A stretch of 64,000 nt of DNA from a bacterium (GTDB taxonomy: Bacteria > Orphanbacterota > Orphanbacteria > Orphanbacterales > Orphanbacteraceae), in assembly GCA_025782575.1 (NCBI GenBank), contig JALGYY010000017.1:175892-239891 (forward strand), written 5' to 3'. Both the position numbers and the translations under genes were made by a program. Below the pieces are notes generated by a model, which saw nothing but the letters and a program-made list of their open reading frames with translations, did not search any database and was not told the DNA's origin. Each line of letters begins with the position of its first letter. Within the stretch, counting starts at the first letter, position 1. This document shows, one piece after another, positions 12,477 to 41,326 of this stretch.

Positions 12477-13655
12477 TCAATAGAGAAAATGTCCCTGTAC
12501 TACAGTCTGAGTGTAGTCCGTCCGGCTCAGCGCCGGATCGATAATCGACCCATCCGGTTCGTCGATCACATACGTCTGGACGAGCAGGCTGAGCACGGCG
12601 AATGGATTGAGAAACAGATTAATCCCTGCACCCCACCGCGCTTCCGTGCCGGATTGAAGATCGAGATCAGGGTCGTGAAAACTGAAAGTTCCCACAAGAT
12701 CGAGTCCCTGCCGAACCTGGAAAGCCGCTTCGTGTGATGTAATGAACGTGGTGATCTCCTCGTCGCTTTCCGGAAGATTCCATCTGGTCCAATCCGCCTC
12801 TCCGAGCCAGGTGAATCGGTCCCAATGAAACGCGCCGAACGGTCCCCCCGTATTGCGTTCCCTCACCTCGTCCGACGGGAGAGACCGGTCATCATCCGAC
12901 TGATAGGAGCCGCCGAGAGTGACGCCCGTCCCCTTCAGGTGAAACCGCCAGGCACCTCTGGCAGCGAAAGAGAGTTCATCATTGAAATCCTGCGTCGCGC
13001 CCTGGTTCCCGTTCAGGAGCGAGAGATGCAATTCGGTATTCCCTGGATAGAGGCCGACCTCCACACCGACATCGGTATGGGCGGGGGGCTCGAAGCCGAG
13101 TACTTCACGGGTAAACGCGTTGTGATCGGCTAGCTTCCAGCCGAATGCGGGAGTGAAACGACCGACTTTGACGTAGCCGTTATGGGGGAGTACCTGGGCC
13201 ATCCCGAAGGCCTCATAGGTCGTGCTTGAACCCCGATCGAGATAGGCGGACCAGTGATCGTCCCCCTGGAAGGAGAGATAGAAATCGCTTTGCATATGAA
13301 AGAACCCGTTCTCCGATCGCAATGCGTCCTCGTCGGAGTAGCGTGCAATGGTCCGAAGATCGGCGCCGATCGTGATCCGATCGGCAATATGGGGATTGAT
13401 CTTTTCGATGTCCCCCATTCCCCAGGGGTTGTAAACCATTTCAGTGGGCACCAGGAACTGGCTTGCGTAGGTCGTTCTCATCCCCCCACCTGTAGGATTC
13501 ACATGACAGAGAGAACACTTCTGCTCGTATCGAGCCGAATAGCGGGGAAGACCGAATGCGGAGGAGACGGAGAACGGCCCCAGGTTCGTTTGGATCGCGC
13601 CGAGCGCCATCATCAGACTGAAAACCCTGACAACAACAGTCCCTTTGATTCTCAT
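12477..13655 (-). CDS. Outer-membrane porin-like barrel with N-terminal haem c motif
   Basis: There are 392 residues. After a long signal region (cleavage probably near residue 34) comes a CxxCH haem c motif, C47-C50-H51 in QKCSLCHVNPTGGGMR. From about residue 85 to the C-terminal Tyr the protein is made of alternating amphipathic strands rich in Trp/Tyr/Phe (for example GYVKVGRFTPAFGWKL, WRFHLKGTGVTLGGSY), ending ...VVQGHFLY, as in outer-membrane barrels. One covalent haem at the periplasmic mouth of a porin is the simplest reading. GGAAGGGGAAG precedes the ATG. It lies between the barrel-SppA gene and yceI in the same operon. Only one haem site is seen, so it is not a multihaem conduit by itself. 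Confidence 0.75.
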   Translation of the reverse strand: MRIKGTVVVRVFSLMMALGAIQTNLGPFSVSSAFGLPRYSARYEQKCSLCHVNPTGGGMRTTYASQFLVPTEMVYNPWGMGDIEKINPHIADRITIGADLRTIARYSDEDALRSENGFFHMQSDFYLSFQGDDHWSAYLDRGSSTTYEAFGMAQVLPHNGYVKVGRFTPAFGWKLADHNAFTREVLGFEPPAHTDVGVEVGLYPGNTELHLSLLNGNQGATQDFNDELSFAARGAWRFHLKGTGVTLGGSYQSDDDRSLPSDEVRERNTGGPFGAFHWDRFTWLGEADWTRWNLPESDEEITTFITSHEAAFQVRQGLDLVGTFSFHDPDLDLQSGTEARWGAGINLFLNPFAVLSLLVQTYVIDEPDGSIIDPALSRTDYTQTVVQGHFLY

Positions 13656-16556: not shown

Positions 16557-17288
16557 ATGAAAAAGACCGTTATCATCCTCGCGGCTCTCGCCATTGCGGC
16601 GACCGCGTACGCCCAGCCCTGGCACGCCAAAGGGGACGTGTACTGCGTGCCGGGTTGCTGGAATTTTGATGCTGGCAACCTGTTGAATGACCTTGGCGTG
16701 AGTGGGGACGCTGTCTCAGGCGATGGGATCTACAGCGCTCTTGTCACCACAGATGTCGGCGCGATCGGCAAGTATTCGTGGAAAGCGGCCCGCGACGACT
16801 GGTCAGATGCTTATCCCGGCAGCAACCAGTTCGTCCATGTAGGCGTCTTGGCGGAGCAGATCCTGTTCACCCTCGACACGAACGCCAATGGTGACGGCTG
16901 GCTTCCGGATCAGAATATCGCCTGGTCCGATCATTACGCTCCGGCCGGTACCGCTTTCGAAGTAATCGGTGCGGCGGCCGAAATCGGCACCTGGGCTGAC
17001 GGCGTAGTCGCCACGAATGTGGGCGGGGTTCACTCCGTTACTGTCAATATCGCCACACTTGGCAGCTATGACTTCCTGTGGCGCGCCGACAATGACTGGG
17101 ACCTCCAGACCATGCGCGCCGACGGCGGCGCAAGCGGTGGCGGGAACCTGAACTTCACTACCGTTAATCCGAACACGAATGTTCTTTTCGAGTTCAATGC
17201 GAACACCGGCCGGACCCGGTCCACCGTGCTCACCAACACGGCGACCGAGAACTCGAGCTGGGGCTCGATGAAGCAGCTCTTCCGGTAG
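16557..17288 (+). CDS. Exported protein upstream of secreted amylase, function unknown
   Basis: This 243-residue protein has a clear signal peptide (MKKTVIILAALAIAATAYA). The mature part seems to hold two beta-sandwich domains of about 100 residues. The first (about 25-125) contains GVSGDAVSGDGIYSALV and ends in LFTLDTNANGDGW. The second (about 130-225) has FEVIGAAAEIGTW, similar to the 'ViGs.pelG.Wd' strand of starch-binding and pullulanase accessory domains, and a closing VLFEFNANTGRTRSTVL. No catalytic site is visible. Located 107 bases upstream of the secreted GH13 amylase on the same transcript, it may bind alpha-glucan at the surface or periplasm. This is inference from fold-like motifs and context. 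Confidence 0.75.
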   Translation: MKKTVIILAALAIAATAYAQPWHAKGDVYCVPGCWNFDAGNLLNDLGVSGDAVSGDGIYSALVTTDVGAIGKYSWKAARDDWSDAYPGSNQFVHVGVLAEQILFTLDTNANGDGWLPDQNIAWSDHYAPAGTAFEVIGAAAEIGTWADGVVATNVGGVHSVTVNIATLGSYDFLWRADNDWDLQTMRADGGASGGGNLNFTTVNPNTNVLFEFNANTGRTRSTVLTNTATENSSWGSMKQLFR

Positions 17289-25427: not shown

Positions 25428-26501
25428 TCAGATGATCCTCCGTTCCGTCTCATGATCAAAGAAGTGCGCCTGCCCGGCCGGCATCCGAATGCGCACGTCA
25501 TCGCCCATTCGAAGTGAAGGAAGTCCGTCGACACGGGCAATGAGCCGGCGACCTCCCATTGTGAGATAGATATTGGACTCGCCCCCCATCGGTTCGACGA
25601 GTTCCACTCTCGCCGGGAGCCCCTCCCCCTCACTCTGAATCTCGACGAGCTCCGGGCGCACGCCGACGAAAACTTCCCGCCCCACATGGTTCGCCAGGAG
25701 TGTGATTGTCTCCGGTGTGGACGGGATACGCGACTCCCCCACCTGGAGCTCCGTCCCCGTCCATCGGGCAGGAAGGACATTCATCGGAGGGGACCCGATG
25801 AACTCTCCGACAAAACGATTGGCAGGGTTCGAGTAGAGGCCCATCGGCTTGTCCACCTGCTGCACAAGGCCATCGCGTAGGACAGTGATTCGCTCTCCCA
25901 TTGTCATCGCCTCCACTTGATCGTGGGTGACGTACAGGGTCGTGATCCGGAGCCGCTCATGAAGCGCGGAAATTTCCGCTCTCATCTGCACGCGAAGCTT
26001 CGCATCCAGATTCGAGAGCGGTTCGTCAAAGAGAAAAACCTTGGGCTTACGGACGATCGCCCGCCCGAGGGCAACGCGCTGCCGCTCCCCTCCGGAGAGT
26101 TGGCCGGGACGTTTTTCGAGCATGGAACTGAGACTTAAAGTATCAGCTGCTTCCCTCACAAGACCGTCGATCTTCTCTTTCGGGTGCTTTCTTACGCGAA
26201 GCCCGAACGCAATGTTTTCATAGACGGTCATGTGCGGGTAAAGGGCGTAGCTTTGAAAGACCATGGCGATATCCCGGTCCCTCGGCGGAACATCGTTCAC
26301 CACCCGGTCATCGATCAGGATCTCACCGTCATCGATATCTTCCAGACCCGACACAACTCTGAGGATTGTGGATTTGCCGCAACCGGAAGGCCCGACGAGA
26401 ACCATGAATTCCTGATCATGAACTTCCAGGTTGATTCCCTCGAGAACAGGCTCCCCCTTGCCGTAGCTCTTGGTGAGATTACGGAGAATGATACCAGCCA
26501 A
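25428..26501 (-). CDS. malK: Sugar ABC transporter ATPase, start at TTG
   Basis: The protein has 357 residues from TTG 26501, which has GAGGAGG 5 bases upstream and gives MAGIILRNLTKSYG, the normal MalK N-terminus. The frame continues 44 codons upstream to an ATG, but that part has no family similarity and contains the promoter. Walker A is GPSGCGKST, the Q-loop MVFQSYALYPH, signature LSGGERQRVALGRA, Walker B VFLFDEPLSNLD and the switch His in VTHDQVEAM. The C-terminal regulatory (TOBE/OB) region covers about 235-357. It energises MalFG import and may also take part in regulation, as MalK does elsewhere. Confidence 0.9.
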   Translation of the reverse strand: MAGIILRNLTKSYGKGEPVLEGINLEVHDQEFMVLVGPSGCGKSTILRVVSGLEDIDDGEILIDDRVVNDVPPRDRDIAMVFQSYALYPHMTVYENIAFGLRVRKHPKEKIDGLVREAADTLSLSSMLEKRPGQLSGGERQRVALGRAIVRKPKVFLFDEPLSNLDAKLRVQMRAEISALHERLRITTLYVTHDQVEAMTMGERITVLRDGLVQQVDKPMGLYSNPANRFVGEFIGSPPMNVLPARWTGTELQVGESRIPSTPETITLLANHVGREVFVGVRPELVEIQSEGEGLPARVELVEPMGGESNIYLTMGGRRLIARVDGLPSLRMGDDVRIRMPAGQAHFFDHETERRII

Positions 26502-26553
26502 GTTGACCTCCTCGATCGCAGGCGATTCGGCGCCGTGTCCGGGATGGGACCAA

Positions 26554-26582
26554 ATAGTAAGGAACGGGGCGAAGATGGTCAA
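26554..26582 (-). promoter_or_regulatory. Sigma70-type promoter of the malKEFG operon
   Basis: On the minus strand TTGACC (26582-26577) and TACTAT (26559-26554) are 17 bases apart. The expected start near 26547 gives a leader of about 45 bases ending in GAGGAGG and the TTG start. This supports excluding the upstream ATG of the malK frame. Confidence 0.6.
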
Positions 26583-26660
26583 CCGGAACGCTCGTCGAAG
26601 ACTTCTGGAATAATCTGGCCCAAGATGGTACACTGCATAGGGTTATTGTCCCGGAAAACC

Positions 26661-26675: not shown

Positions 26676-26710
26676 ATATGTTCTTTCTCTTTTCATCCTT
26701 GGAGGGCAAA

Positions 26711-28756
26711 ATGAGGAGAAGTTACACACTGCTGGCCATCCTGGCGGCTATTACGTTGGGCGCCGGATCGGTACATGCAGAGGGTTTTGGTACGCCGACG
26801 ATCGACGGAGTGATCGACGGGGTCTACGGAGCGGCGGAGGCGACAGACCCTTCAGGCGAACTCTGGAACGGACTCACCAACCTCGACCTCACCAATCTCT
26901 ATGTCTGTAACGACAATACGTTCTGGTACTTCGCCATCGAAGTGAACGCCGATATTGCCGCTACAGCCTGGGCAAAATACATCATCGACATCGATGTAAC
27001 CAACGATACCGACGGCGGGACGAGCGACGCGTGGGCCCGGCCGGTCCTGGTCAATGACCCGCATAAGCCGGAATACTCGCTTCGAAGCTGGGTGGATAAT
27101 CTGCCCTACGATCCGACTGACAGCCAGGTATGGGCGTGGACACAGGGTACGACTTCGTGGGCACAGACGAGCACACTTGACGACGTGGCTCTCGCCGCGG
27201 GCGCGACCTCCGTTCTCGAATGGAAAGTGGCGAAATCGAAGTTCGGTAATCCGAGCACGATCTGGGTGGAAGCCTGGACGACCGGAGGCGGAGGGGGCGA
27301 CAACGCCCAGGATACTTCGAACGATCCCGCAGGTGACTGGGATGCGATTGACTGGAGCAGTCCGGCGACGATCAGCGTTTCTACACAGGTAGCCGAGCAG
27401 TCCGGCGGAGACACGACCCCGCCTACGGTGACGGGCTACAGCTACGACGCCCTCGATCGGCTCGTGATGCACTTCAGCGAGCCGATCGATACGCTGACAG
27501 CTCAGATCGGCGCCAATTACTCCGTGACAGGTGAAGTCGTAATCGGGGCGGTCTTGAACGACGCCTCTTCCGTCGAGTTGATTCTCGGAAGCGACATGTC
27601 GCTCGGGAGCTGCATCGACGCTGAAGCGATCAACGTCAAAGATCTTGCCGGCAACGCCATTGTCGACAACAACGTGACAAACGTGACTTCACTCTTTCTG
27701 ACGGAACTCCACATCCGTGGTCAGATGAGCATTCATCTGCAATCCCATACGTTCTTCCCGGCAATCGATACTTTTGCAATTGAAGGGAGCATCTTCCCGC
27801 TCACATGGGATCCGACGTGTGATGATCTTCTGCTGGACGGCGGAACGGTCGACTCGGTCTACGAGGCTACGCTCGTCTTCGCATCCGATTGCGGCGTTGT
27901 GAGCAATGAACCTGACACGGTCACTCTCGAGTACAAGTTCACCCATCAGTGCACGGAATGGGAAGGCGTCAGCAACCACGTCTACGAGCTGAACATGGGT
28001 GTTCCGATCGATACTCTCGATATCTGGTGGGATAATCAGGCGCCGATTGACTTCACTGACAAAGATATCGATGTGATTTTCAATACGATCAGCAGTCTGC
28101 AGGCGCCGTTCGTTCCCGGCGATACTCTTGCCGTGAACGGGAGCATCTCGCCGCTCAGCTGGGACACACCCCCGTTTGCGACCAGCATCATGGCTGATGA
28201 CGGCGTTTTGCCGGACACGACAGCAGCCGACGGGAGATACACGAAACGGATGACATTCCCGGCGGGTTCGCTCAAGAACTTCGAGTACAAGTACTTGTTG
28301 AAGGAGATGGGTGACACTCTCTGGGTATTCGAGTGCGACTTTCAGCCGAACCGCTCGATCTTCCTGAATGACACGCTCTTTTCGACATCCTCGCCGATCG
28401 TTCTCGATCTGCAATGGTTCGACATCTGCCGGGACATCGTCGGAATCGATGCGGGTGAAGTTCCGAGCCGGTTCAGCCTTCTCCAGAACGTGCCGAACCC
28501 GTTCAACCCGACAACGGTGATCGAGTTCGAACTGCCGGAAGCGGCCAGAGTCAACCTGTCGATCTATGACGCCTCAGGCCGGCTCGTCCGCCGGCTCGTA
28601 GACCGGGAGCTTCCTGCCGGGACCTACTCGGGAAGCCGCGGTGTCATCTGGTCGGGGACCGATGACAGAGGCATGAGCGTTGCGAGTGGTGTTTACTTCT
28701 ACAGTCTCGATATGGGAGGCGAAAAGCAGACTCGTAAAATGGTGCTTGTCCGTTAG
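26711..28756 (+). CDS. Exported multi-domain protein with sorting domain, divergent from malK
   Basis: The protein has 681 residues from the ATG with GGAGGG 4 bases upstream; an earlier ATG adds 11 residues before the signal peptide and is rejected. The signal peptide ends at VHA. Residues about 22-235 look like a DOMON/CBM9-type ligand domain (GTPTIDGVIDGVYGAAEATD...). About 240-335 is an Ig-like 'Big_5' domain. Two related beta domains follow, each with a 'DT(F/L)A(I/V)xGSIxPLxWD' start (about 345-455 and 460-565), reminiscent of starch-binding modules. The last 85 residues are the FlgD-like sorting region (VPNPFNPTTVIEF ... GVYFYSL). No catalytic site is seen. Surface glycan binding is inferred. 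Confidence 0.82.
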   Translation: MRRSYTLLAILAAITLGAGSVHAEGFGTPTIDGVIDGVYGAAEATDPSGELWNGLTNLDLTNLYVCNDNTFWYFAIEVNADIAATAWAKYIIDIDVTNDTDGGTSDAWARPVLVNDPHKPEYSLRSWVDNLPYDPTDSQVWAWTQGTTSWAQTSTLDDVALAAGATSVLEWKVAKSKFGNPSTIWVEAWTTGGGGGDNAQDTSNDPAGDWDAIDWSSPATISVSTQVAEQSGGDTTPPTVTGYSYDALDRLVMHFSEPIDTLTAQIGANYSVTGEVVIGAVLNDASSVELILGSDMSLGSCIDAEAINVKDLAGNAIVDNNVTNVTSLFLTELHIRGQMSIHLQSHTFFPAIDTFAIEGSIFPLTWDPTCDDLLLDGGTVDSVYEATLVFASDCGVVSNEPDTVTLEYKFTHQCTEWEGVSNHVYELNMGVPIDTLDIWWDNQAPIDFTDKDIDVIFNTISSLQAPFVPGDTLAVNGSISPLSWDTPPFATSIMADDGVLPDTTAADGRYTKRMTFPAGSLKNFEYKYLLKEMGDTLWVFECDFQPNRSIFLNDTLFSTSSPIVLDLQWFDICRDIVGIDAGEVPSRFSLLQNVPNPFNPTTVIEFELPEAARVNLSIYDASGRLVRRLVDRELPAGTYSGSRGVIWSGTDDRGMSVASGVYFYSLDMGGEKQTRKMVLVR

Positions 28757-30111: not shown

Positions 30112-31755
30112 CTAGTCGATCTTGGTGATCGAGTAGGTCAGTTTTCCTTCGTCCAAGCGGAACTCATATGTTCCGGATTCAGTGAAGTTCAGCTTACCGA
30201 GTGCCGTTCCGAAACCGGTGATGGAGCAGATGTCACCGGAGAGCGCGACCGAACACGTGTTGTCTTCCCCGGTACAGGTTCCGTAGTCGGCCGGGCTGTC
30301 GAAGCCGCCGTCCGTTACGAACTTCATCAGATAGCAGCCATGGCCGATCACCATCGTATCGACCCAGACACAGCTTTCAACTTGTATCATCGACGGCACT
30401 CCGGGCAGGTTCCAGTCATTGAATTCGCCCAGAACCTGAATCGCGCTGAATTCCGATTCGCAAGGAACTCCCGCAAGTGTCACTTCGCCGATCGGTGTCG
30501 TCTGTCCGGCAAATACCGTGACGCCTTCCACCACTACGTCCTGGAACGTTCGAGCGCTGACGAGAACGTCATACTGCCCGGGATTCAGTCCTTCCACCAG
30601 GAAGGTGGCCGTAGCACTGTCGGCGATTCCCGAAGCGATAACGACACTGTCGCCCGCTTCCCTCACTTCGAAGGTCACCGCGGGCACCGGATCGGGCGCT
30701 ACGTCGAACGTGTACGATCCTGCGAGACCGCCGGATCGTTCTAATGTGACCGTGGCGACGTTGGTCTCCTCCCCTGCGATGAATTCCACGCCCGGTAGCA
30801 GGGAGCTTACGTATCCGTCTGACTCGAATAACAGGTCGTACACGCCGTCAATCAAATCTTCAAACATGTAAGAAGTCTCGCCGGTCGTGAGCGAAAGCGT
30901 GTCGGCGACCGTCGACGTTCCGGTGGCGAACACGGTGATGTCCACGGAAGGAGTGGGGCTCGGCGAGTCGGCAAACGCCACCGATCCTCGGATGAAACCG
31001 GTGGCGATCACATCGATCGTCTCGAGATCGGTACCCGATTCCGCGCTGACTCGAACATTACGTACGAAGCGCACGGGGTAAGTATCCTCTTCGCCGGGCA
31101 CTTCAATAACGACAGTGTATATGCCTGCGGTGAGATTCTCGATGGTGAACCGTGAGCTGTCGACGCCGACCGTGTCCCAGGGAACCTCCGAGGGGAGGGC
31201 GATCTGGAAAAAGCCCGGGTCGATGGACGTGTTCAACAGGAACCAGTAGTCCCCGTCTTCATCGATCGGAATCTTGATGTCGTCTTCGTTTCCGCTTGTG
31301 ACTTCGCCGCGACGGGTGTCCTCGTCAATATCGCAGTCTCCGCACTGAGCGAAACTTCCTCCCCATGATGCATTGGTCACGAATTTCCAGGCGAAGGCGT
31401 CGTCACTCTGCACATCGATCAGTTCCTGCGTCCAGAAACAGGGAAAAGCCTCTATCATCCCCTCGGTTTCGAGCCAGGCGTCCTCACTCCAGTCATTGTA
31501 TGTGCCGGTAATATGGACGGAAGTCTCCGGGCCGACGCAGGAAGGATTGTAGTTCTGGAGAGCATAAACAACCGTTTCCGGATAGGGCGGAGCGATCCCC
31601 CAATCGAGAGTTCCCGTGATGACACCCTCGATAACACCGCTCGTGGGAGGCGTGAGTAGCGGTGATTCGTCATTGTCCCCGCACTGGAGCGAGAGAAATG
31701 CGGCCAACACCGTCAGACCAGCGAGAATCGTCCGAGTCTTGTTTCTTCGTCCCAT
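30112..31755 (-). CDS. Lipoprotein with two CBM48-like modules and carboxypeptidase-regulatory-like repeats
   Basis: This is 547 residues from the ATG with GGAG upstream; a longer frame begins inside the previous gene. The lipobox is LSLQC. Residues about 50-190 contain a starch/glycogen-binding-like module (VHITGTYNDWSED ... FAWKFVTNASWGG). About 255-420 hold two CarboxypepD_reg-like repeats (GFIRGSVAFADSP; GGLAGSYTFDVAP). About 430-547 hold a second module (IQVLGEFNDWNLPG ... YLMKFVTDGGFD). No enzyme motif is present. In position and build it resembles SusE/SusF surface starch-binding lipoproteins, though not by direct sequence match. It is the last gene of the operon. Confidence 0.82.
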   Translation of the reverse strand: MGRRNKTRTILAGLTVLAAFLSLQCGDNDESPLLTPPTSGVIEGVITGTLDWGIAPPYPETVVYALQNYNPSCVGPETSVHITGTYNDWSEDAWLETEGMIEAFPCFWTQELIDVQSDDAFAWKFVTNASWGGSFAQCGDCDIDEDTRRGEVTSGNEDDIKIPIDEDGDYWFLLNTSIDPGFFQIALPSEVPWDTVGVDSSRFTIENLTAGIYTVVIEVPGEEDTYPVRFVRNVRVSAESGTDLETIDVIATGFIRGSVAFADSPSPTPSVDITVFATGTSTVADTLSLTTGETSYMFEDLIDGVYDLLFESDGYVSSLLPGVEFIAGEETNVATVTLERSGGLAGSYTFDVAPDPVPAVTFEVREAGDSVVIASGIADSATATFLVEGLNPGQYDVLVSARTFQDVVVEGVTVFAGQTTPIGEVTLAGVPCESEFSAIQVLGEFNDWNLPGVPSMIQVESCVWVDTMVIGHGCYLMKFVTDGGFDSPADYGTCTGEDNTCSVALSGDICSITGFGTALGKLNFTESGTYEFRLDEGKLTYSITKID

Positions 31756-31765
31756 GATGTGACTC

Positions 31766-32176
31766 CTACTTGACGATGAGCAGTGAGTTGAATCCGCCGT
31801 ATCCGTCGTCGACACGAAGCGGATTATTGGGATCCTCTTTCCAGGTCTGCTCGTCGATCACAAACTTATACTGATAGCGGCCTTCGGGCAGATCGACGAC
31901 CTTGGTCCATACTCCATCGCCGTCTTCATCTTCCATGAGTCCGATAAGGTAGCTTCCCGTCTCCGCCTGCCCCTGCAGCCAGTTATTCCATTCCCAGTTA
32001 CCCGCAAGCTGCACCCGGGATGCCGAGAGAGCTTCGAACTGGAATCGCATTCCCTCACCCACTTCGTAGGGCGGCGGAAGGCGGCGCTTGATAAAGTCGA
32101 GATTGATGCAACCGCTCATCACTGCCGGGATCAGAAGCGCGCCAATCAGGATTCTGGTTTTATTCCATTTGATCAT
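31766..32176 (-). CDS. Small lipoprotein made of one CBM48 glycogen-binding domain
   Basis: The protein has 136 residues with a signal peptide and lipobox VMSGC. The mature part is a single AMPK/isoamylase-N type E-set domain: VQLAGNWEWNNWLQG, GVWTKVVDLPEGRYQYKFVID and the closing EDPNNPLRVDDGYGGFNSLLIVK. These are the same landmarks as in the CBM48 modules of the divergent GH13 enzyme. It sits between the CBM48-porin and the larger CBM48 lipoprotein, with gaps of 18 and 10 bases. It probably tethers alpha-glucan at the outer membrane. Confidence 0.87.
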   Translation of the reverse strand: MIKWNKTRILIGALLIPAVMSGCINLDFIKRRLPPPYEVGEGMRFQFEALSASRVQLAGNWEWNNWLQGQAETGSYLIGLMEDEDGDGVWTKVVDLPEGRYQYKFVIDEQTWKEDPNNPLRVDDGYGGFNSLLIVK

Positions 32177-32194: not shown

Positions 32195-34348
32195 CTAAAA
32201 TCGAACGATCCCCTCAACCTGGAAGCGCTCTTCGTCTTCGAGCGCCTGCTCGGCTTGGGGGATCAGAGACCCCAGGTTGGTAAAGTCCTTACGCGCCGCG
32301 TCTCCGTTCGCACCCAGATCGAATAGGAATTCATCTCTTCCGATGTACCCGTATTCGTTCGTGGTCTCATCGATAACATACGGATCGACACCGTATGAGA
32401 ACGCCAATTCGAGACCGGCGCCGAATTCATAGGCCACTTCGAAAAACGTCGACCAATAGGAGCTGAACAGGTCGAGCACAGGGTCATTGTACTTCACGAG
32501 CCGCGTGTCCGAATAGAGTCGAAAGCTCTTGTACGGCCGTGACAGAAGTTGCAAGAGGGTCTCGACGTACTTGGGATCGTTTCCTGTCACCCCGGCGATC
32601 TGGCCGAGATAGGTGAACCGGACATCCCGAGCTTCCCAGACATCGAATGAAATCTCAGGCCGCAGGATCGTCGCGTCCCGCCCGCCAAGAAGAGTCATCC
32701 TGTCGAACGACACTTCATGCTCGGCATGTTCCAGCCAGAAGTTTCGCGTATCGAACCAGAGTTGATTCTCCCAGGGGGTTCGATCGTCGTAGTCGAACGA
32801 GAAGAAATCGCCGGCCAGTCCGACCCGGAGATCGTGCCAGGCTTCGTATTCTTTATGATAATCGAACCGGATCAGATTCACACTGTTATCGATGTCGCCA
32901 TGAATTCCGGTGGCGTAGAACGTCTGCTCGTGGGTTTCGAGTTCCCAACTGAGCGCCAGAGTCCGGCGACCTTCATCGGAACGCCACTCCCCACCGACGA
33001 AAAAGCGATTGGAGTTATCGAGATCGAAGTCCGCTCCCTCGATCAGAAGCTGGCCCGATGTGGAGACTATCTCCGCATCATACGTGGTTTCCTGCAGGAA
33101 GGGATCGACCTCTCCCGACGTGCGGAGTACGACATCGGTCACAGTCCCGTCCCTGCCGGCCACGTGGGCAGAGCCACGCAGGTATTCAAAGCGAAGCCGA
33201 TACGGAACCTCCTCGCCGCCGTAGGAAACGTCTCCTCCCCATGCGGTCCACTGCTCAACTGTTTTCGCGTAGTCACGTCTTGTTCCAACAGTATCTCCCT
33301 CTGCCGCATCGATAATAGAGAGGCTGCCCGGATTGTGACCACGGTCATAGCGGAATGAGGAGCCGAAGGTAAAGTCATCGTAAGGGAGCTTCAGTCTTGC
33401 GGCGAAAATATCTTTGTCGTTGTCGATAATGTCAGCATTGTAAGTAACTACGTCCCCCAGGCTGAACCGGAATCCAGTGGCGGAACTGTCAAAAACGGTT
33501 CCTGTCTCGGCTGCGCTCACACTGTCAATGCCCGGCGTGGTCGTTCCGCCGTTCTCAAAATCATCTGAGTATAGAAGAGTGAGGCCGAGATCTCTGTACC
33601 AGGTACTGGCAATTGCCCCCTGCTGGCGAAAACCGAAATCGTGGTCGTAAATACCAATCCCGCCGACCAGCTCCAACGGATCGTCCCAGCGACCGGCCGA
33701 TTCGTTGTCATAGAGCATCCCCTCGATTTCATCCGTGTGGAGCTTGATCGATCCCCGATCGAATCGCATATTGGTCCGCCAGAAATCCGTTTCGGTCGCC
33801 TCATTCTCGTTATTGATCGTCGTGAGTAAGTGCACATCGGTCACTTCGTTAACGCGGATACTCCAATCGAGATCGATGTCCATGGTCGGTCGGGTCAGCT
33901 CGAATTGATCGCCACGCCCCTCGTTGGTCGCCGACTTGTAGAGGCCGATGAACCGGCCGCCGAGAAGGATCTTAGGGGAAAAGGCGGTGTTGGATGTCGC
34001 CGCATGCTTCACCTCGCCCCCCCCTGTACCGATTTCGACGAGGGAGTTCCCGTACGCGCCGGATGTGACAGGGTTATCAGGATCGGCCATCCATTGTCCG
34101 TCCACGACAAACTTATATTCGTGCTTTCCGGGAGGAAGCTCCACGGTCACCGTCCAGACACCCTCCTTCTTCTCCATGAGAGTCGCGCCGGTATTCCAGT
34201 TGTTGAACTCACCGGCAATTGCCACGCTGCCTGCATTCTCATCAACGTAAGTAAAAACGACACCGTCCGGCGTTACTTCGAACGCCGCGTGAACGGGTAA
34301 GAATGTTAAAGCGAGCAGACCGATTATCAGGAGCGCCTTGATTCTCAT
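32195..34348 (-). CDS. CBM48 domain fused to an outer-membrane beta-barrel
   Basis: This encodes 717 residues. A signal peptide (1-21) is followed by a CBM48 module at about 22-110 (VAIAGEFNNWNTGATLM, PPGKHEYKFVVDGQWMADPDN). From about 130 to the end the protein is a large barrel of some 20 or more amphipathic strands (ILLGGRFIGLY, DLDWSIRVNEVTDVHLLTTIN, LGLTLLYSDDF), ending EERFQVEGIVRF with a C-terminal Phe, the usual outer-membrane insertion signal. It therefore looks like a porin with its own glucan-binding module in the periplasm or at the surface. No match to LamB or SusC is apparent. It is the fourth gene of the operon. Confidence 0.82.
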   Translation of the reverse strand: MRIKALLIIGLLALTFLPVHAAFEVTPDGVVFTYVDENAGSVAIAGEFNNWNTGATLMEKKEGVWTVTVELPPGKHEYKFVVDGQWMADPDNPVTSGAYGNSLVEIGTGGGEVKHAATSNTAFSPKILLGGRFIGLYKSATNEGRGDQFELTRPTMDIDLDWSIRVNEVTDVHLLTTINNENEATETDFWRTNMRFDRGSIKLHTDEIEGMLYDNESAGRWDDPLELVGGIGIYDHDFGFRQQGAIASTWYRDLGLTLLYSDDFENGGTTTPGIDSVSAAETGTVFDSSATGFRFSLGDVVTYNADIIDNDKDIFAARLKLPYDDFTFGSSFRYDRGHNPGSLSIIDAAEGDTVGTRRDYAKTVEQWTAWGGDVSYGGEEVPYRLRFEYLRGSAHVAGRDGTVTDVVLRTSGEVDPFLQETTYDAEIVSTSGQLLIEGADFDLDNSNRFFVGGEWRSDEGRRTLALSWELETHEQTFYATGIHGDIDNSVNLIRFDYHKEYEAWHDLRVGLAGDFFSFDYDDRTPWENQLWFDTRNFWLEHAEHEVSFDRMTLLGGRDATILRPEISFDVWEARDVRFTYLGQIAGVTGNDPKYVETLLQLLSRPYKSFRLYSDTRLVKYNDPVLDLFSSYWSTFFEVAYEFGAGLELAFSYGVDPYVIDETTNEYGYIGRDEFLFDLGANGDAARKDFTNLGSLIPQAEQALEDEERFQVEGIVRF

Positions 34349-34359
34349 ATTCAGGACCT

Positions 34360-35895
34360 CTAAAAGTTTCCTTTAACTATTACTCGAATAATGTCTTTGT
34401 TATCCGCGCCGCCGGCGAGATCGCCGTCGTTCACCGGGTTAGCGTCGTCTCCGATCCACCAGGGACCGTACGACAGAAAGATGTCCATATTATCCCGCGG
34501 CCGGTACTGGATTTCAGAGAACAGCCCCTTCCGCAATCTCGCAGGATCGTTCCCGAACACATAGCGGTTGTATACCTTGAGCACCTGGGGAATAATGTTG
34601 ATCGAGGTTTCCAGAGATGCGAGTTCCTTTCTTCTCTTTGTGTCCAGATCCTTGATCTTCCCCTGAACCCGCATCCAGGCGAGGCGGCTCTCCACCTGCA
34701 CTTCTGCGAAGAAATCGAAGTTCTTCGTCTCCTCATCGAACAGCTCGTTCGAGAAATCAACTGTCAATTGGCGATCGTACCAGAACTTGCTCGTAAAACC
34801 GTTCACATACTCGGTGTAGATCTCGGTACGGAACCGTGTGTATTTCTTCTGCTCGAATACGCTTCGCCGGTTCTCTTCCCAGTCGAGCGTCACGGTGACG
34901 GCTCTTCCCGGAACGAGATACCAGGTGTTGATCTTGTATCCGACCAGGTCGTTGGTCCCCTCGCCAAGGAACGAAGCGTAGTCCTCTCCAAAGTAGTAAT
35001 AAGATGGGGCGATGTTGTAGAACCCGACTTTGGGACTGCCGAACCGGATGGAACGAAACTCCGCTTTGAACGCGGCGTCCCGCGGTAGAATGCGGTGGAA
35101 TTCGTCGATCTCATAGTCACCGAACTCCCATGTACCATCCGGTTTTCTGTTCTCCCCCGCTCCCTCGACCCTGCTGTCGGCGAACTCGACAAAGAGATCC
35201 GTGTTTCGAACCGTAAACCGGAAATCAACCGCATACACCTGGTTGAAACCCTGCTCACCGTCCTGGGCTTCAAGCTTCCTGGTATAAGTCATTCCAGCCC
35301 GCATGGCGTTGTCTAAGAAGTTACGGCGTAGCCGAAAGACGTGCGCATCATCGGAGGGGGGTGGTGTCGTTACGCTGCCCCCCACTTTCGACTGGCTCGA
35401 GAAGTCACTCACGATGTAGGTGGCGTCCAGTCCTTTCCAGCGGCGAATATCGACACGGGCACCCTGCGCGTTCCCGCCGTCAGTAGTCCCACCCCCCTGC
35501 ACCGGCTGGAGGAGATGGTTGTCGACCCAGAAGCGGTCTTCCCGAGAAAAGAGATAGGCGTCGAACTCGGAATCACCGAAATTCCGCCTGAATCGAAGGT
35601 GAGCTTCACGGTATTGATAGACAGGGCGCTCTTCGTTGTTCGAACCTGTGTTCCAATCCGCCTCCAGGCGAACGTACGCCTCGACCCCCTCGCGGGGAGA
35701 GCTGAATATCCGAAACTGACTCGCCGCCCAGGTATCGTCATGGTTGGATTCGAAATCCCACGGAAAGGCGCGATCCTGTTTCCGGATGTCGAGTTGGAGC
35801 TGATATTCCCCTTCCACCTTGGTAACAGCATTTACGTCGACAACAGCGGCGCCAAGCCCCACCAGGATAATCGAGAGAATCCGTCCTGGTTTCAT
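34360..35895 (-). CDS. Outer-membrane beta-barrel protein, unknown ligand
   Basis: This 511-residue protein has a signal peptide (cleavage near VNA, residue 23). The body is rich in alternating aromatic strands (YQLQLDIRKQD, AYVRLEADWNTG, AHLRFRRNFGDSEFDAYLFSRED) and ends in VIVKGNF, a C-terminal Phe signature. It contains no plug or binding domain and no CBM48. It overlaps the PorV-like gene by 4 bases (ATGA) and precedes the CBM48-porin by 11 bases. It may be a sugar porin or a structural partner of the next barrel. Confidence 0.78.
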   Translation of the reverse strand: MKPGRILSIILVGLGAAVVDVNAVTKVEGEYQLQLDIRKQDRAFPWDFESNHDDTWAASQFRIFSSPREGVEAYVRLEADWNTGSNNEERPVYQYREAHLRFRRNFGDSEFDAYLFSREDRFWVDNHLLQPVQGGGTTDGGNAQGARVDIRRWKGLDATYIVSDFSSQSKVGGSVTTPPPSDDAHVFRLRRNFLDNAMRAGMTYTRKLEAQDGEQGFNQVYAVDFRFTVRNTDLFVEFADSRVEGAGENRKPDGTWEFGDYEIDEFHRILPRDAAFKAEFRSIRFGSPKVGFYNIAPSYYYFGEDYASFLGEGTNDLVGYKINTWYLVPGRAVTVTLDWEENRRSVFEQKKYTRFRTEIYTEYVNGFTSKFWYDRQLTVDFSNELFDEETKNFDFFAEVQVESRLAWMRVQGKIKDLDTKRRKELASLETSINIIPQVLKVYNRYVFGNDPARLRKGLFSEIQYRPRDNMDIFLSYGPWWIGDDANPVNDGDLAGGADNKDIIRVIVKGNF

Positions 35896-36770
35896 TCACT
35901 CCCTCCGAACGGCACGGTGAGCGAAGCCATGTAGGAGATGCCGAGAGTCTTGTGAGTCGAGAACCCCGTGTCGAGGAACCAGCCCTGGCCCAGAAGACCG
36001 AAGCCCCCCCAGAACTCGGCGTCGAACACCCCGCTTCGAAGCGCGAACACTTCAAAGAAGCTGATTTCACCGCCAAGGGAGAGGGCGATTTCATCGATAT
36101 CATTGTGAACCAATCCCGCTGTTACGATCGAATTCTGGTGCCACTGGTAAGCGAGCGAGCCTTCCCACTCCGCCTCCACAACCGTGCCGCCATTTCCAGG
36201 AACGAAGTCGAATTCGGGTTCCACGATGTTACGTACGATTGTGCCGATCGAGAGCTTGGGGGTGGGACGATACAACAGCCCCGCATCGGCGGTGATTTCG
36301 GTCTGCGCCCCATAGTCGCCCGTCCCGATATCATCGAGCCGGGAGAAGTCACTATACGAAACCCGGAGCGCTTTCAGTGTCACGCCGAGTGCCACCGATC
36401 CGAGTGCGGGAAGCCGTCTTTCTTTTGAAACAGAGAGTGAGAAAACATCTTCGGATTGCACGCCGGAAAGACCGAGATGATGCCAGGCCATACCCACATG
36501 GACGATCTTGTTCGGCCAGGTGAGCGCAACATAGTTGGCGGACAGGTCGGGAACGACAAAGGGGCGCGAGTGATTCAGTAGAACGGCCGGGCGATCCTGC
36601 AGTGCGAGGCCGGCCGGGTTCCAGTAAACCGCTGAGGGGTCGTCTGCAATGGCGTGAAATGCCTGGCCCATGGCGAGCGCCCGGCCACCCACTTCGAGCC
36701 GCTCATAATAGGCGCCTGCGGGAGCGGCCAACATGAGTAACACTAACAGTGCTGCCCCGCGAATCATCAT
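35892..36770 (-). CDS. PorV/UPF0164-like outer-membrane protein
   Basis: The 292-residue protein has a signal peptide (MMIRGAALLVLLMLAAPAGA) and the hallmark 'GGRALAMGQAFHAIADDPSAVYWNPAGLAL' of the PorV/PorQ branch of FadL-like barrels. The rest is a barrel of about 14 strands. PorV proteins help deliver or attach Type IX cargo at the cell surface. Here the preceding gene encodes a protein with the FlgD-like sorting region, and the two genes overlap by 4 bases, which fits a dedicated cargo-carrier pair. That pairing is inferred. Confidence 0.85.
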   Translation of the reverse strand: MMIRGAALLVLLMLAAPAGAYYERLEVGGRALAMGQAFHAIADDPSAVYWNPAGLALQDRPAVLLNHSRPFVVPDLSANYVALTWPNKIVHVGMAWHHLGLSGVQSEDVFSLSVSKERRLPALGSVALGVTLKALRVSYSDFSRLDDIGTGDYGAQTEITADAGLLYRPTPKLSIGTIVRNIVEPEFDFVPGNGGTVVEAEWEGSLAYQWHQNSIVTAGLVHNDIDEIALSLGGEISFFEVFALRSGVFDAEFWGGFGLLGQGWFLDTGFSTHKTLGISYMASLTVPFGGSE

Positions 36771-38194
36771 CGGACCACCGAAAAGCCACGGATTTCACTG
36801 CTCACACCGGGCTCGATTACAAGTCGAAGGAGATAGATTCCGCCGGGAACCATGTGGCCGCTGTCGTCAAGACCGTCCCAGCGGTTTTCGTCCAGGAGAT
36901 TGGATTCGGAGTTCACAAGCTCCCCGATCCTGCGTGCGATTTCCCGGTAGAGCGTTTTTACCAGAAGGCCCCTCATGTTGTAGATCTCGGCCGTAAGCGT
37001 CACGTTCCGATCCCGTTCATCAATCGACTCCGCCGACGGATCGAGAGTGAACCAGAATCGAAGCTCATCCCCCTCTTCCGGAGAGAGAATGGGACGGTCG
37101 AACGAGATCTCATTCATGGCGAAAGTGATTCCCCGAACCGGAGGATCGGCGAGGAACCGCACCCGGTTCTTGATTCGCACATCCTGCAGATCGGGCGCTC
37201 CGTCGGCTAGAATCGTGTCGACCACAGGATCGGGAATCGTATCGACCACAATGCCCCCACCCACCTCGGTTGTGTCCAGCCGAAAGGTGTCCGTTACATC
37301 GTAGATCTGCCGGCCGGACTCGGTCAGAAAGAAGGTCGTATCCAAGGGAACAATGGCGTAGTTGTCGATTGAAACCTGGTCAGATGATTCAATCGTATGG
37401 CCGCTGAAGTTATCGGGCGCCGAGTCGGGCCCTCCTGTGCCGTCAGCGCCGGCGGTAACAATGGCGCAGAAGCGAATGGGACGGGACGGGCTGAGACCTC
37501 CCGGAAGGAGCCAGCTGGAATCCCTAACAGACTCATCGAAGAATCGCGTCAAACCATCCGCGTAAAAGACGTCCCATGGAATCGCCGCTTCCATCGAGCG
37601 GCCCGTGATGGACTGGTCGAACTTGGCCTCTGTTTCGATCGTGTTGTTGTCGATCTCCACGACCGTATTCTCACCGGAGGCACGCCAGAGCTGGGGCGTC
37701 GTGTTCCCGTCCCACGTAGCGAGGAAGAGATCGGGACGAAAACCGTTGGAAAAGACGAAGTTACGGCGCCAGGAATTCAGCTCCGTCATCTTCTCGAGAC
37801 CACCGGGAAGGTAGTCCATCAATAAAATAATATTGTTATCCCAGCTGATTCCGTCGACAGCGACGTAGATGTTCTCAGCGTCCCATGTCACTTTGATCTG
37901 ATTGATGTCGTTATTAAAACCCCACTTGGAGTCGTTGTTGGGCTCCTCATCAAGTACGATCGGCCGGCCGTCGAGCAACCGTGTCACCTGGCCGAAGAGC
38001 TGCTCATCGTCTTCAAAATCCCGAACAATCTCCCCCGCCCGCCCCTCATGAGTGGGAAAACCATCGATCTCGATGCGGCCGGACAGATTGCGGCCGGTCT
38101 CACCCCATGCGGGGAGAGCGGCGCATAGGAAAATGACTGTGAGGGCGAACGAGACACCCGTCAGTCCGGTGTAATTCTTTGGATTCAGCTTCAT
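36767..38194 (-). CDS. Exported protein with CBM9/DOMON-like region and FlgD-like sorting end
   Basis: The protein is 475 residues from ATG 38194; the open frame begins 13 codons earlier, but the signal peptide (MKLNPKNYTGLTGVSFALTV...) fits this start. No Shine-Dalgarno sequence precedes it. Residues about 35-260 have the pattern of a glycan-binding or sugar-sensing exported domain (INQIKVTWDAENIYVAVDGISWDNNIILLMDYLPGG). About 360-475 form the FlgD-like region (RFWFTLDP ... AEIYNMRGLLVKTL ... GGIYLLRLVI), although the 'PNPFNPTT' box is absent. It is the first gene of the six-gene operon, divergent from the GH13 gene. Confidence 0.78.
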   Translation of the reverse strand: MKLNPKNYTGLTGVSFALTVIFLCAALPAWGETGRNLSGRIEIDGFPTHEGRAGEIVRDFEDDEQLFGQVTRLLDGRPIVLDEEPNNDSKWGFNNDINQIKVTWDAENIYVAVDGISWDNNIILLMDYLPGGLEKMTELNSWRRNFVFSNGFRPDLFLATWDGNTTPQLWRASGENTVVEIDNNTIETEAKFDQSITGRSMEAAIPWDVFYADGLTRFFDESVRDSSWLLPGGLSPSRPIRFCAIVTAGADGTGGPDSAPDNFSGHTIESSDQVSIDNYAIVPLDTTFFLTESGRQIYDVTDTFRLDTTEVGGGIVVDTIPDPVVDTILADGAPDLQDVRIKNRVRFLADPPVRGITFAMNEISFDRPILSPEEGDELRFWFTLDPSAESIDERDRNVTLTAEIYNMRGLLVKTLYREIARRIGELVNSESNLLDENRWDGLDDSGHMVPGGIYLLRLVIEPGVSSEIRGFSVVR

Positions 38195-38204
38195 GACATC
38201 GCGG

Positions 38205-38233
38205 ATACTAGCATCCGGGGCAAACCTGATCAA
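38205..38233 (-). promoter_or_regulatory. Promoter of the CBM48 outer-membrane operon
   Basis: On the minus strand TTGATC (38233-38228) and TAGTAT (38210-38205) are 17 bases apart. The expected start near 38198 is only about 4 bases before the ATG at 38194, which has no ribosome-binding site, so a leaderless message is possible. Confidence 0.5.
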
Positions 38234-38314: not shown

Positions 38315-41300
38315 ATGCGTCTCGCCATCCCTTCGATTCTTACCCTGCTGGCCATGCTGGTCTCTGCATCGCCGTCTTCAGCCGCAGTTTCCGTTCATTT
38401 CACCTACCGGCCGGACACTTCCGATCCGGGCCAGATATCGGTAGCAGGGGAGTTCAATAACTGGAACGCCTCCGCCGATCTCATGTCCGATGATGACGGA
38501 GACGGCGTCTTCGAGGCCACGATCGAGATCGAACCAGGACGCTACGAATACAAAATCGTAGTCGACAATGTCTGGATGGAAGATCCGGTGGCCACAGAGC
38601 AGACGGCCAACCCGTTCGGCGAATTCAATTCGGTTATCACCATCCCGGAAGGCGTTCTGGCCATCGAATCATCCGGAGAGGGGGCGATCGCGGGTCCCTC
38701 TACCGGGGCCGCAGCTGGTGGAAAAACACCGGTACGGTTCACATTTACTCCACCCACCACCAACCCGAGCCTCGTTACCGTGGCGGGCGAGTGGAACGGC
38801 TGGAGTATGGGGACAGACTACCTGGCCGATGGTGATGGGGACGGCACGTTTGACGGAACGGTCAAACTGGAGCCGGGCCGGTATGAATACAAGTTCGTGG
38901 TGGATGGCGTCTGGTTTGAAGACCCCCTGGCCATGGAGCAAGTGGACGACCCTCATGGCGGCTTGAACTCCGTGGTCATCGTGACGGCCGGCGACGGTTC
39001 ATCGGAGCCCCCCCCCACGCCCGCCAAGCCCCAAACTCCCATGGCCATCGAATATCGGATCACGGCAGCGTCGAACGAGCCAACGGAAGAGGGAAACGAG
39101 CTGCGGATAGTCACGTTCCGGTTCGTCCCCGAAAGCGCGGCATCAGAAGTTTTTCTCGCGGGGACGTTCAACGAATGGAACCCAACCGGAAATCTGATGG
39201 AAGGGCCGGGCGAGGATGGCGCCTGGACTCTGAACCTGACCCTCGTGCCAGGTGAGCATCGTTACAAATTCGTTGCCGACGGCAACTGGATTCATGATCC
39301 GAACGCGGAAGATTTGGTGGACGACGGATTCGGCGGCTCGAACTCGGTGATCATCGTGGACGATCGCTACGAGTCGATCGCCATCGCGGAAGGGGACGGG
39401 CAGTTTCGAACAGAGGGGCTCTTTCTCTCTCGGGAGCAGATTCTGTTGACACGGGTCTCTCCTGAACGGGTGATGGTTACCGCCCGGGCTTTCAGGAACG
39501 ATGTTGAGTCAGTATCGGCGAGAGTATTGGGGCCGACCGGCCAGGCTGAGTTCCCCCTCACCCGGATCGGCGATGACGGTCAGTTCGCCTACTACCAAGG
39601 CGATGTCGCCGTCGGAACAGAAGAAGAAGCACGGCTTGCCATTTTGCTTCATGACGGAGGCGTCACCTACCTGCTCGGCTCGGATGACGGCAAGGGAGTT
39701 TCGAACGAGAATCTGCTGCTCATCAACTCGGAATCAGTCCCCCCATTCGAAACGCCTGACTGGGTAGCCGACGGCGTGGTGTACCAGATCTTCCCGGACA
39801 GATTCCGGAACGGGAACCCTGACAACGATCCCGATTTTTTAGAGGACTATTACGACGGCGCCAGGGACCTTCCCAGGAGCGGGAAGCGGAACGGCGAGTA
39901 TTTTCATCTCATGGAGAGTTGGAACGATCACACAGGACTGGTAAAGAGCCCGTACCGGACAGACGGGAAGCCCGACTACTACTCCTTTTACGGTGGTGAT
40001 CTGGAGGGTGTGACCGAGAAACTGGACCACCTTCGTGATCTGGGTGTCACCATCCTCTACTTCAATCCGCTCCATCAGGCACAGTCCAATCACAAATATG
40101 ATGCGATCGACTATGCCCGAGTGGATCCTCACTTTGGCGGAGACGACGCGTTCCGCGAACTCGTCAGCCATGCCCATGACCGCGGCATTCGCGTGATCAT
40201 CGACGGCGTGTTCAACCACACGGGCAAGTATCATTACGCTTTTCTTGACACGAAGGAGAAGGGGAGTAAGTCCAAGTACTGGAGCTGGTACGACTGGAAG
40301 GAATGGCCCCTTCCCCCGGGACCGATTCCAGAAGATCAATATATGAACTACTACGATTGCTGGTGGGGTTACGGCTCGCTCCCCAATCTCAGCTTTGATC
40401 TGTCGCTGTATGGCGAAGACGAAATGAAAGCCAAGCGAATCGAGGATGCCGACCCGAATCAGGATCTTATTAATCACATCAATGACGTCATTCAATTCTG
40501 GATGGGAGAGATGGACGCGGATGGAATCCGGCTGGACGTAGCAAACGAAGTACCGGTCTGGTACTGGGAAATCTTTCGAGACCAGGTTCGCTCCGTTCGA
40601 CCTGACGGCGGCTGGGTAATCGCCGAGCTCTGGGGGAACGCCGCCTCTGATCTGGGGCCCCATCGTTTCGACGCCACTATGAACTACAAGTACTTCCGCG
40701 ATCCGGTGCTTTCATTTATCGCGCGTGGGGCTGTGGACGCCGATGCGTTCGACAATCTGCTGGCGGGGGGCCGATACGGCTATCCCCTCCCATCGGCCTG
40801 GGGGAGCATGAACCTGCTCGATTCCCACGATACGGAAAGATTTCTGACAACTGCGGGAAGGGACACAAGAAGGCTCACTCTGGCGGCTACTTTCATGGCC
40901 TGCTATGTCGGGATGCCTCACATTTATTATGGCGACGAGATCGGCATGGAGGGAGGCCCCGACCCTGATTGCAGGCGGCCCTACCGGTGGGATGAGGAGG
41001 ATGAGCCGTCTCGCGCGGCCATTCGCGACCACTACAAATCAGTGCTCGCCATACGCGCCGCCCACCCGGCTCTTCGCCGAGGCGGGTTCCGCTCCATCTT
41101 CACCGATGGCAATCTTTATGTGTTCACCCGGGAACTGGGTGACGACCGGATCGCCGTCGTGCTGAACGCCGATCGCGCGCCGGCTGCGGTTCAATTGGAA
41201 GGGGCGGCGATTTCGATGACCGGGACATCGGCAAGAGAGCTCCTGACAGAGAGTGATATTCGCCTGGAAGGGGGCGTCCTCAATCTGAGTCTCGAGCCTT

Positions 41301-41326
41301 ACAGCGCGGCGGTGATCGCCTACTAG
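38315..41326 (+). CDS. Exported GH13 amylase/neopullulanase-like enzyme with three CBM48 modules
   Basis: This encodes 1003 residues. GGAAAGGAG precedes the ATG and a signal peptide ends near SAA (24). Three CBM48 modules lie at about 27-112 (AGEFNNWNASADLM), 138-225 (AGEWNGWSMGTDYL) and 262-348 (AGTFNEWNPTGNLM), followed by an N-domain-like region (about 355-475) and a GH13 barrel from about 483. Catalytic residues are intact: D741 (DGIRLDVANE), E771 (VIAELWGNA), D839 (LLDSHDTERF). The overall build is like cyclomaltodextrinase/neopullulanase (GH13_20-like). No sorting region is present, so it is probably periplasmic or released. It is divergent from the CBM48 outer-membrane operon and probably co-regulated with it. 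Confidence 0.92.
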   Translation: MRLAIPSILTLLAMLVSASPSSAAVSVHFTYRPDTSDPGQISVAGEFNNWNASADLMSDDDGDGVFEATIEIEPGRYEYKIVVDNVWMEDPVATEQTANPFGEFNSVITIPEGVLAIESSGEGAIAGPSTGAAAGGKTPVRFTFTPPTTNPSLVTVAGEWNGWSMGTDYLADGDGDGTFDGTVKLEPGRYEYKFVVDGVWFEDPLAMEQVDDPHGGLNSVVIVTAGDGSSEPPPTPAKPQTPMAIEYRITAASNEPTEEGNELRIVTFRFVPESAASEVFLAGTFNEWNPTGNLMEGPGEDGAWTLNLTLVPGEHRYKFVADGNWIHDPNAEDLVDDGFGGSNSVIIVDDRYESIAIAEGDGQFRTEGLFLSREQILLTRVSPERVMVTARAFRNDVESVSARVLGPTGQAEFPLTRIGDDGQFAYYQGDVAVGTEEEARLAILLHDGGVTYLLGSDDGKGVSNENLLLINSESVPPFETPDWVADGVVYQIFPDRFRNGNPDNDPDFLEDYYDGARDLPRSGKRNGEYFHLMESWNDHTGLVKSPYRTDGKPDYYSFYGGDLEGVTEKLDHLRDLGVTILYFNPLHQAQSNHKYDAIDYARVDPHFGGDDAFRELVSHAHDRGIRVIIDGVFNHTGKYHYAFLDTKEKGSKSKYWSWYDWKEWPLPPGPIPEDQYMNYYDCWWGYGSLPNLSFDLSLYGEDEMKAKRIEDADPNQDLINHINDVIQFWMGEMDADGIRLDVANEVPVWYWEIFRDQVRSVRPDGGWVIAELWGNAASDLGPHRFDATMNYKYFRDPVLSFIARGAVDADAFDNLLAGGRYGYPLPSAWGSMNLLDSHDTERFLTTAGRDTRRLTLAATFMACYVGMPHIYYGDEIGMEGGPDPDCRRPYRWDEEDEPSRAAIRDHYKSVLAIRAAHPALRRGGFRSIFTDGNLYVFTRELGDDRIAVVLNADRAPAAVQLEGAAISMTGTSARELLTESDIRLEGGVLNLSLEPYSAAVIAY

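Follow-up and report, generated by a model that had tools for sequence, protein, structure and literature searches.

Alpha-glucan uptake through the outer membrane is already known, and the maltoporin LamB (PF02264) and the SusCDEFG system of Bacteroides are the described systems closest to the one considered here. We describe a protein, encoded in a bacterial DNA stretch of 64,000 nucleotides (the window), in which a starch-binding domain of the CBM48 type is fused to a predicted outer-membrane barrel. This protein family and its locus with two predicted barrels appear to be undescribed. LamB is similar in the proposed passage of maltodextrins through the outer membrane and in the adjoining MalEFGK genes, but it has about 420 residues and lacks a carbohydrate-binding module (CBM), whereas the barrel described here would comprise about 600 residues and follows an N-terminal CBM. 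In SusCDEFG an outer-membrane barrel, starch-binding lipoproteins and an amylase likewise belong to one locus. It differs in that here CBM and barrel form one polypeptide and the inner-membrane step is that of a Mal ABC transporter. No SusC plug or TonB-receptor domain is among the Pfam matches listed for eight family members at E values up to 5.

Other known proteins resemble this one in part. The glycogen-binding domain of AMPK beta subunits and the CBM48 of GH13 enzymes are homologous to its N-terminal domain, but they belong to kinases or soluble enzymes and not to membrane proteins. Barrels of the LptD and BcsC type have an N-terminal periplasmic domain followed by a large C-terminal barrel, and LptD has a lipoprotein partner, LptE. 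The predicted plan of our protein is similar in all three respects; the cargo differs, however, and Pfam gives no sequence relation. Finally, in DUF5916 proteins a domain that binds carbohydrate likewise precedes a predicted barrel. We take this binding domain to be CBM9-like and the C-terminal part to be a barrel. Here the binding domain is a different one and the barrels have no profile similarity. Kinship with DUF5916 was considered and rejected (PF19313 is unmatched and the hhalign probability is 0.3%). Such CBM9-like and DUF5916 proteins occur in all seven sampled genomes of the window's family (L055:691-3456 and L052-L059).

The relevant features of the window are as follows.

22441 to 26633, minus strand: maltose-type ABC transporter genes MalG, MalF, MalE and MalK (NCBIfam and Pfam)
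30112 to 31815, minus strand: predicted lipoprotein, 567 aa, with CarboxypepD_reg repeats and a weak CBM48-like match (Pfam, synteny)
31766 to 32176, minus strand: small CBM48 protein, 136 aa, with a lipobox-like start, MSGC (Pfam AMPK1_CBM, E 2.2e-8; synteny; lipobox by eye)
32195 to 34348, minus strand: CBM48-barrel gene, an intact ORF of 717 aa
32198 to 33997, minus strand: predicted C-terminal beta-barrel, residues 118-717, with a final Phe (classifier, periodicity, conservation)
34043 to 34258, minus strand: CBM48/AMPK1_CBM domain, residues 31-102 (Pfam E 2.5e-19; AMPK beta alignment)
34286 to 34348, minus strand: residues 1-21, read as a signal peptide cut after VHA (translation, by eye)
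34360 to 35895, minus strand: second predicted outer-membrane barrel, 511 aa, ending in KGNF (classifier, alternation, profile, synteny)
35892 to 36770, minus strand: 292-aa barrel protein resembling PorV/PorQ (NCBIfam PorV_fam below cut-off, E 2.7e-13; Pfam TraF_2; synteny)
36767 to 38233, minus strand: secreted protein whose C-terminal tail weakly resembles the FlgD type (profile matches, synteny)
38315 to 41326, plus strand: divergent GH13 alpha-amylase, 1003 aa, with three CBM48 domains (Pfam)

The N-terminal domain is certainly a CBM48 by sequence. In Pfam, AMPK1_CBM covers residues 31-102, with 69.7 bits where the cut-off is 26.8 (E 2.5e-19), and CBM_48 covers residues 26-86, with 38.7 bits where it is 22.4 (E 1.3e-9). 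The span of about 22-110 given in the initial annotation was thus about right, and the same annotation read correctly both the final Phe and, as far as can be judged by eye, the signal peptide (MRIKALLIIGLLALTFLPVHA). Matches in PDB sequences are confined to the CBM and are chiefly AMPK beta subunits. W51, K79, W86 and N101 align with the glycogen-binding residues of AMPK beta-2, positions which we take to be ligand residues. In an alignment of 25 family sequences W51 is kept in all 25, K79 and W86 in 24 each and N101 in 21. A CBM48 need not bind glucan, as is seen in Bacteroides ovatus SusG, whose CBM48 shows no glucan binding (PMC11633381).

There is another CBM48 fusion. Four or more genomes of the window's family, its own included, encode a ParA/Soj-type ATPase with a C-terminal CBM48/AMPK1_CBM domain (L004:1477-2568 in its own genome; L018:676-1773, L020:1489-2580 and L025:682-1764). 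This protein may serve to position glycogen granules.

The CBM48-barrel gene is present in all seven sampled genomes of the window's family, which are also the whole sample for its class and phylum. It occurs once in the window's own genome; the copies in the other six are 53-60% identical, one being cut by a contig end. A scan of genome contigs added one named relative, in Gemmatimonadota bacterium DHS20C21 (L035), whose group supplied G008; two of five genomes there have the barrel. With the CBM left out, a barrel profile (A3) matched 17 of 290 genomes, and a broader one of the C-terminal region (A9) matched 26 of 386, across 17 families. Contigs and positions indicate that G077 is identical with G008, and G348 with G007. 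The viral contigs searched contained no relative.

A starch-binding domain stands ahead of the barrel in every one of the 25 copies with a readable N-terminus (Pfam); the copy in G001 is left out of this count, its contig ending before the CBM. The search profiles contained no CBM sequence, and hence the constancy of the fusion does not stem from the way in which the proteins were collected. This domain-architecture search, which the initial annotation had proposed, bears out the fusion design that it described in a single protein; what it took for one protein is a family with its own locus in many bacterial families. The fused domain is CBM48 in 24 copies, doubled in two of them (L088 and L089); the matches in L091 (26.3 bits) and L116 (24.2 bits) fall just below the AMPK1_CBM cut-off of 26.8. 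In the remaining copy, from a distant genome (L087:727-3243), two CBM20 domains replace CBM48, an exchange that keeps the predicted specificity for starch.

The neighbours are conserved as well. The second barrel gene lies 11 bases upstream of the CBM48-barrel gene and the gene of the small CBM48 lipoprotein is the next one downstream. In the window the operon sits between MalGFEK (22441-26633) and the divergent amylase (38315-41326); further left are GH57 enzymes, a glycogen synthase and another amylase. We compared eight near loci (L035, L043, L044, L046-L050) and 17 distant ones (L120-L136). The rows of L046 in the alignments of the FlgD-tail protein and the amylase are wrong genes and were excluded from all counts. 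All eight near loci have the CBM48 lipoprotein downstream and all eight the 567-aa lipoprotein; the second barrel is upstream in seven, the PorV-like protein is present in six and the FlgD-tail protein in five, every miss falling at a contig end. Among the distant loci the CBM48 lipoprotein is found in 15 of 17, the two misses having only 47 and 1,911 bases downstream. The second barrel is found in 12, and a profile places it directly upstream in three more (G079, G083, G220). The PorV-like protein is found in ten, in one of which it is a partial copy on the downstream side. At least one of MalE, MalF and MalG accompanies 11 of the 17, and an amylase five; Mal genes were not seen near the other six copies, some of whose regions are short. 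The CBM48-barrel thus belongs to a conserved locus of two barrels, lipoproteins and a Mal transporter in many families.

The second barrel occurs in 30 of the 386 genomes, and 24 of these are among the 26 with the CBM48-barrel, against 2.0 expected (Fisher p 2e-30), a figure that is inflated because the genomes are related and because profiles A9 and A10 draw in part on loci in which both barrels had already been recognised. At the level of families 16 are shared, out of 17 for the CBM48-barrel and 18 for the second barrel. All 19 second-barrel ORFs that were read end in an aromatic residue. Compared with each other, the two operon barrels align over 48 columns with a probability of 16-19%, no more than a hint of homology. 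One second-barrel gene (L141, G004:C27:17457-18899) has a single in-frame TAG, which is either a sequencing error or the mark of a broken copy.

What might such a protein do? Judging by its domains and its gene neighbourhood, we think it probable that the CBM48-barrel is the outer-membrane channel of an uptake system for alpha-glucans, that is, for fragments of starch or glycogen. A secreted amylase would cut the glucan polymer, and the C-terminal barrel, probably of some 24-28 strands, would admit maltodextrins across the outer membrane. The N-terminal CBM48, at the periplasmic mouth of the barrel or in its lumen, would bind the incoming chain. It might then either gate a wide pore or pass the chain on in the direction of MalE and MalFGK. 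Its partners would be the second barrel and the CBM48 lipoprotein encoded alongside. The module might concentrate oligosaccharides at the channel, as the initial annotation proposed. As a rule both termini of a barrel are periplasmic, and so are the N-terminal domains of ordinary barrels. By this analogy the CBM is more likely to lie inside the lumen or at the mouth on the periplasmic side than on the surface, and is probably not surface-facing. The glycogen synthesis genes nearby make other roles possible. Of the initial annotation, then, the fusion of a starch-binding module with a barrel and the role in alpha-glucan handling are well supported. Fusions of a CBM with a barrel are not confined to this family, as CBM9-like domains fused to DUF5916 barrels also occur.

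A bolder proposal would make the locus a third, undescribed outer-membrane route for alpha-glucans in many lineages without LamB and SusD. It would be a machine of two barrels, one with its own starch-binding gate, together with the CBM48 lipoprotein, feeding the Mal ABC transporter. We advance it tentatively, as a little less probable than not. PF02264 matches neither the CBM48-barrel protein nor anything in the 26 barrel-carrying genomes (the E. coli control is positive), and SusD (PF07980) is found in none of the 26 (the Bacteroides control is positive). LamB and SusD are both rare outside certain groups. Given that rarity, and with no base rate to set against it, their absence shows only that these genomes lack the described routes; it is no evidence that the CBM48-barrel has taken their place.

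The barrel might instead only anchor the starch-binding module outside the cell, as SusE and SusF do in Bacteroides, with the sugar entering elsewhere, for example through the second barrel. The near-constant presence of that second predicted barrel alongside would suit this arrangement, as would the tandem CBMs of L088, L089 and L087. Yet a barrel of 600 residues is a costly anchor when predicted lipoproteins share the operon, and N-terminal domains of ordinary barrels point to the periplasm. We regard such anchoring as unlikely.

If the barrels and the PorV-like protein were instead a secretion device that brings amylase or starch-binding proteins to the cell surface, the cargo could be guided or tethered by the CBM. 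The PorV-like neighbour and the secreted proteins with FlgD-type tails would fit export or assembly of this kind. On the other side, Mal uptake genes are linked in 11 of the 17 distant loci and a glucan-binding domain is always linked to the barrel; moreover, PorV-like proteins occur outside type IX secretion as well. We regard an export function as quite improbable. Apart from the question of what the CBM48-barrel does, FlgD-type C-terminal tails are present on three secreted proteins of the window (26678-28756, 17396-20476 and, weakly, 36767-38233), and together with the PorV-like protein they hint at a sorting route of the type IX kind.

We infer the barrel fold by indirect tests, since an AlphaFold model from two input sequences (the window protein and L035) has a mean pLDDT of 28 and is unusable. 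The roughly 600 residues after the CBM48 match no Pfam family, and a profile of this region alone matched no PDB chain up to E 10. We trained a logistic classifier on composition and periodicity, using 16 E. coli barrels or barrel domains as positives and 124 further E. coli proteins as negatives. It separated the training sets fully (AUC 1.0, related barrels held out together). Residues 118-717 score 0.94, and their two halves 0.97 and 0.89; the full ORF, at 0.91, has the top score among the 42 window ORFs scored. Other family members (the set of profile A3 and L042) score 0.61-0.86. Secreted beta-rich proteins of the window score in between (0.63 for that at 26678, 0.52 for that at 30115), so that the classifier alone is no proof of a barrel. 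Two further window ORFs, 12477-13655 and 16557-17288, look barrel-like to it (0.78 and 0.82).

The hydrophobic pattern of the region points the same way. Over the 25-sequence alignment its beta-type alternation (beta/alpha ratio) is 1.45, with z 6.0 against column shuffles, while non-barrel controls made alike give 0.84 (MalE), 0.82 (MalF), 0.96 (MalK) and 0.98 (the FlgD-tail protein), with z from -1.0 to 0.3. The PorV-like barrel (1.35, z 3.1) and the second barrel (1.16, z 2.2) are higher than these controls. A single-sequence strand score does not separate the region cleanly from controls. The final residue is Phe in 24 of the 25 proteins; in L091, the exception, a short stretch follows the aligned Phe, so that the Phe column is kept in all 25 rows. 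At the 90th percentile of the shuffles the profile shows 27 amphipathic peaks, where shuffled profiles give 15.9, and the figure of 24-28 strands is a rough guess from this. The barrel claimed at the outset thus gains from the classifier, the alternation and the terminal Phe. A beta-rich fold that is soluble or at the surface, as the poor two-sequence model and the middling scores of two secreted beta-rich proteins might allow, is very improbable for the region, given its alternation next to that of four non-barrel controls, the barrel-like scores of both halves and the invariant Phe column.

In the open-licence PubMed Central literature we found no description of the CBM48-barrel protein, in agreement with the initial annotation, which knew of no porin of such design. 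LamB and SusCD are confined to a few groups and do not explain how starch fragments cross the outer membrane in most little-studied Gram-negative phyla. The nearness of the CBM48-barrel to sugar-import genes suggests another bacterial way to take in starch fragments. The family offers a specific and testable candidate for it: one gene with a defined binding domain and a conserved locus, in 17 families of the 386-genome sample. As the barrels match no Pfam family, the predicted channel is missed by routine annotation, and a handle for annotating such barrels would follow.
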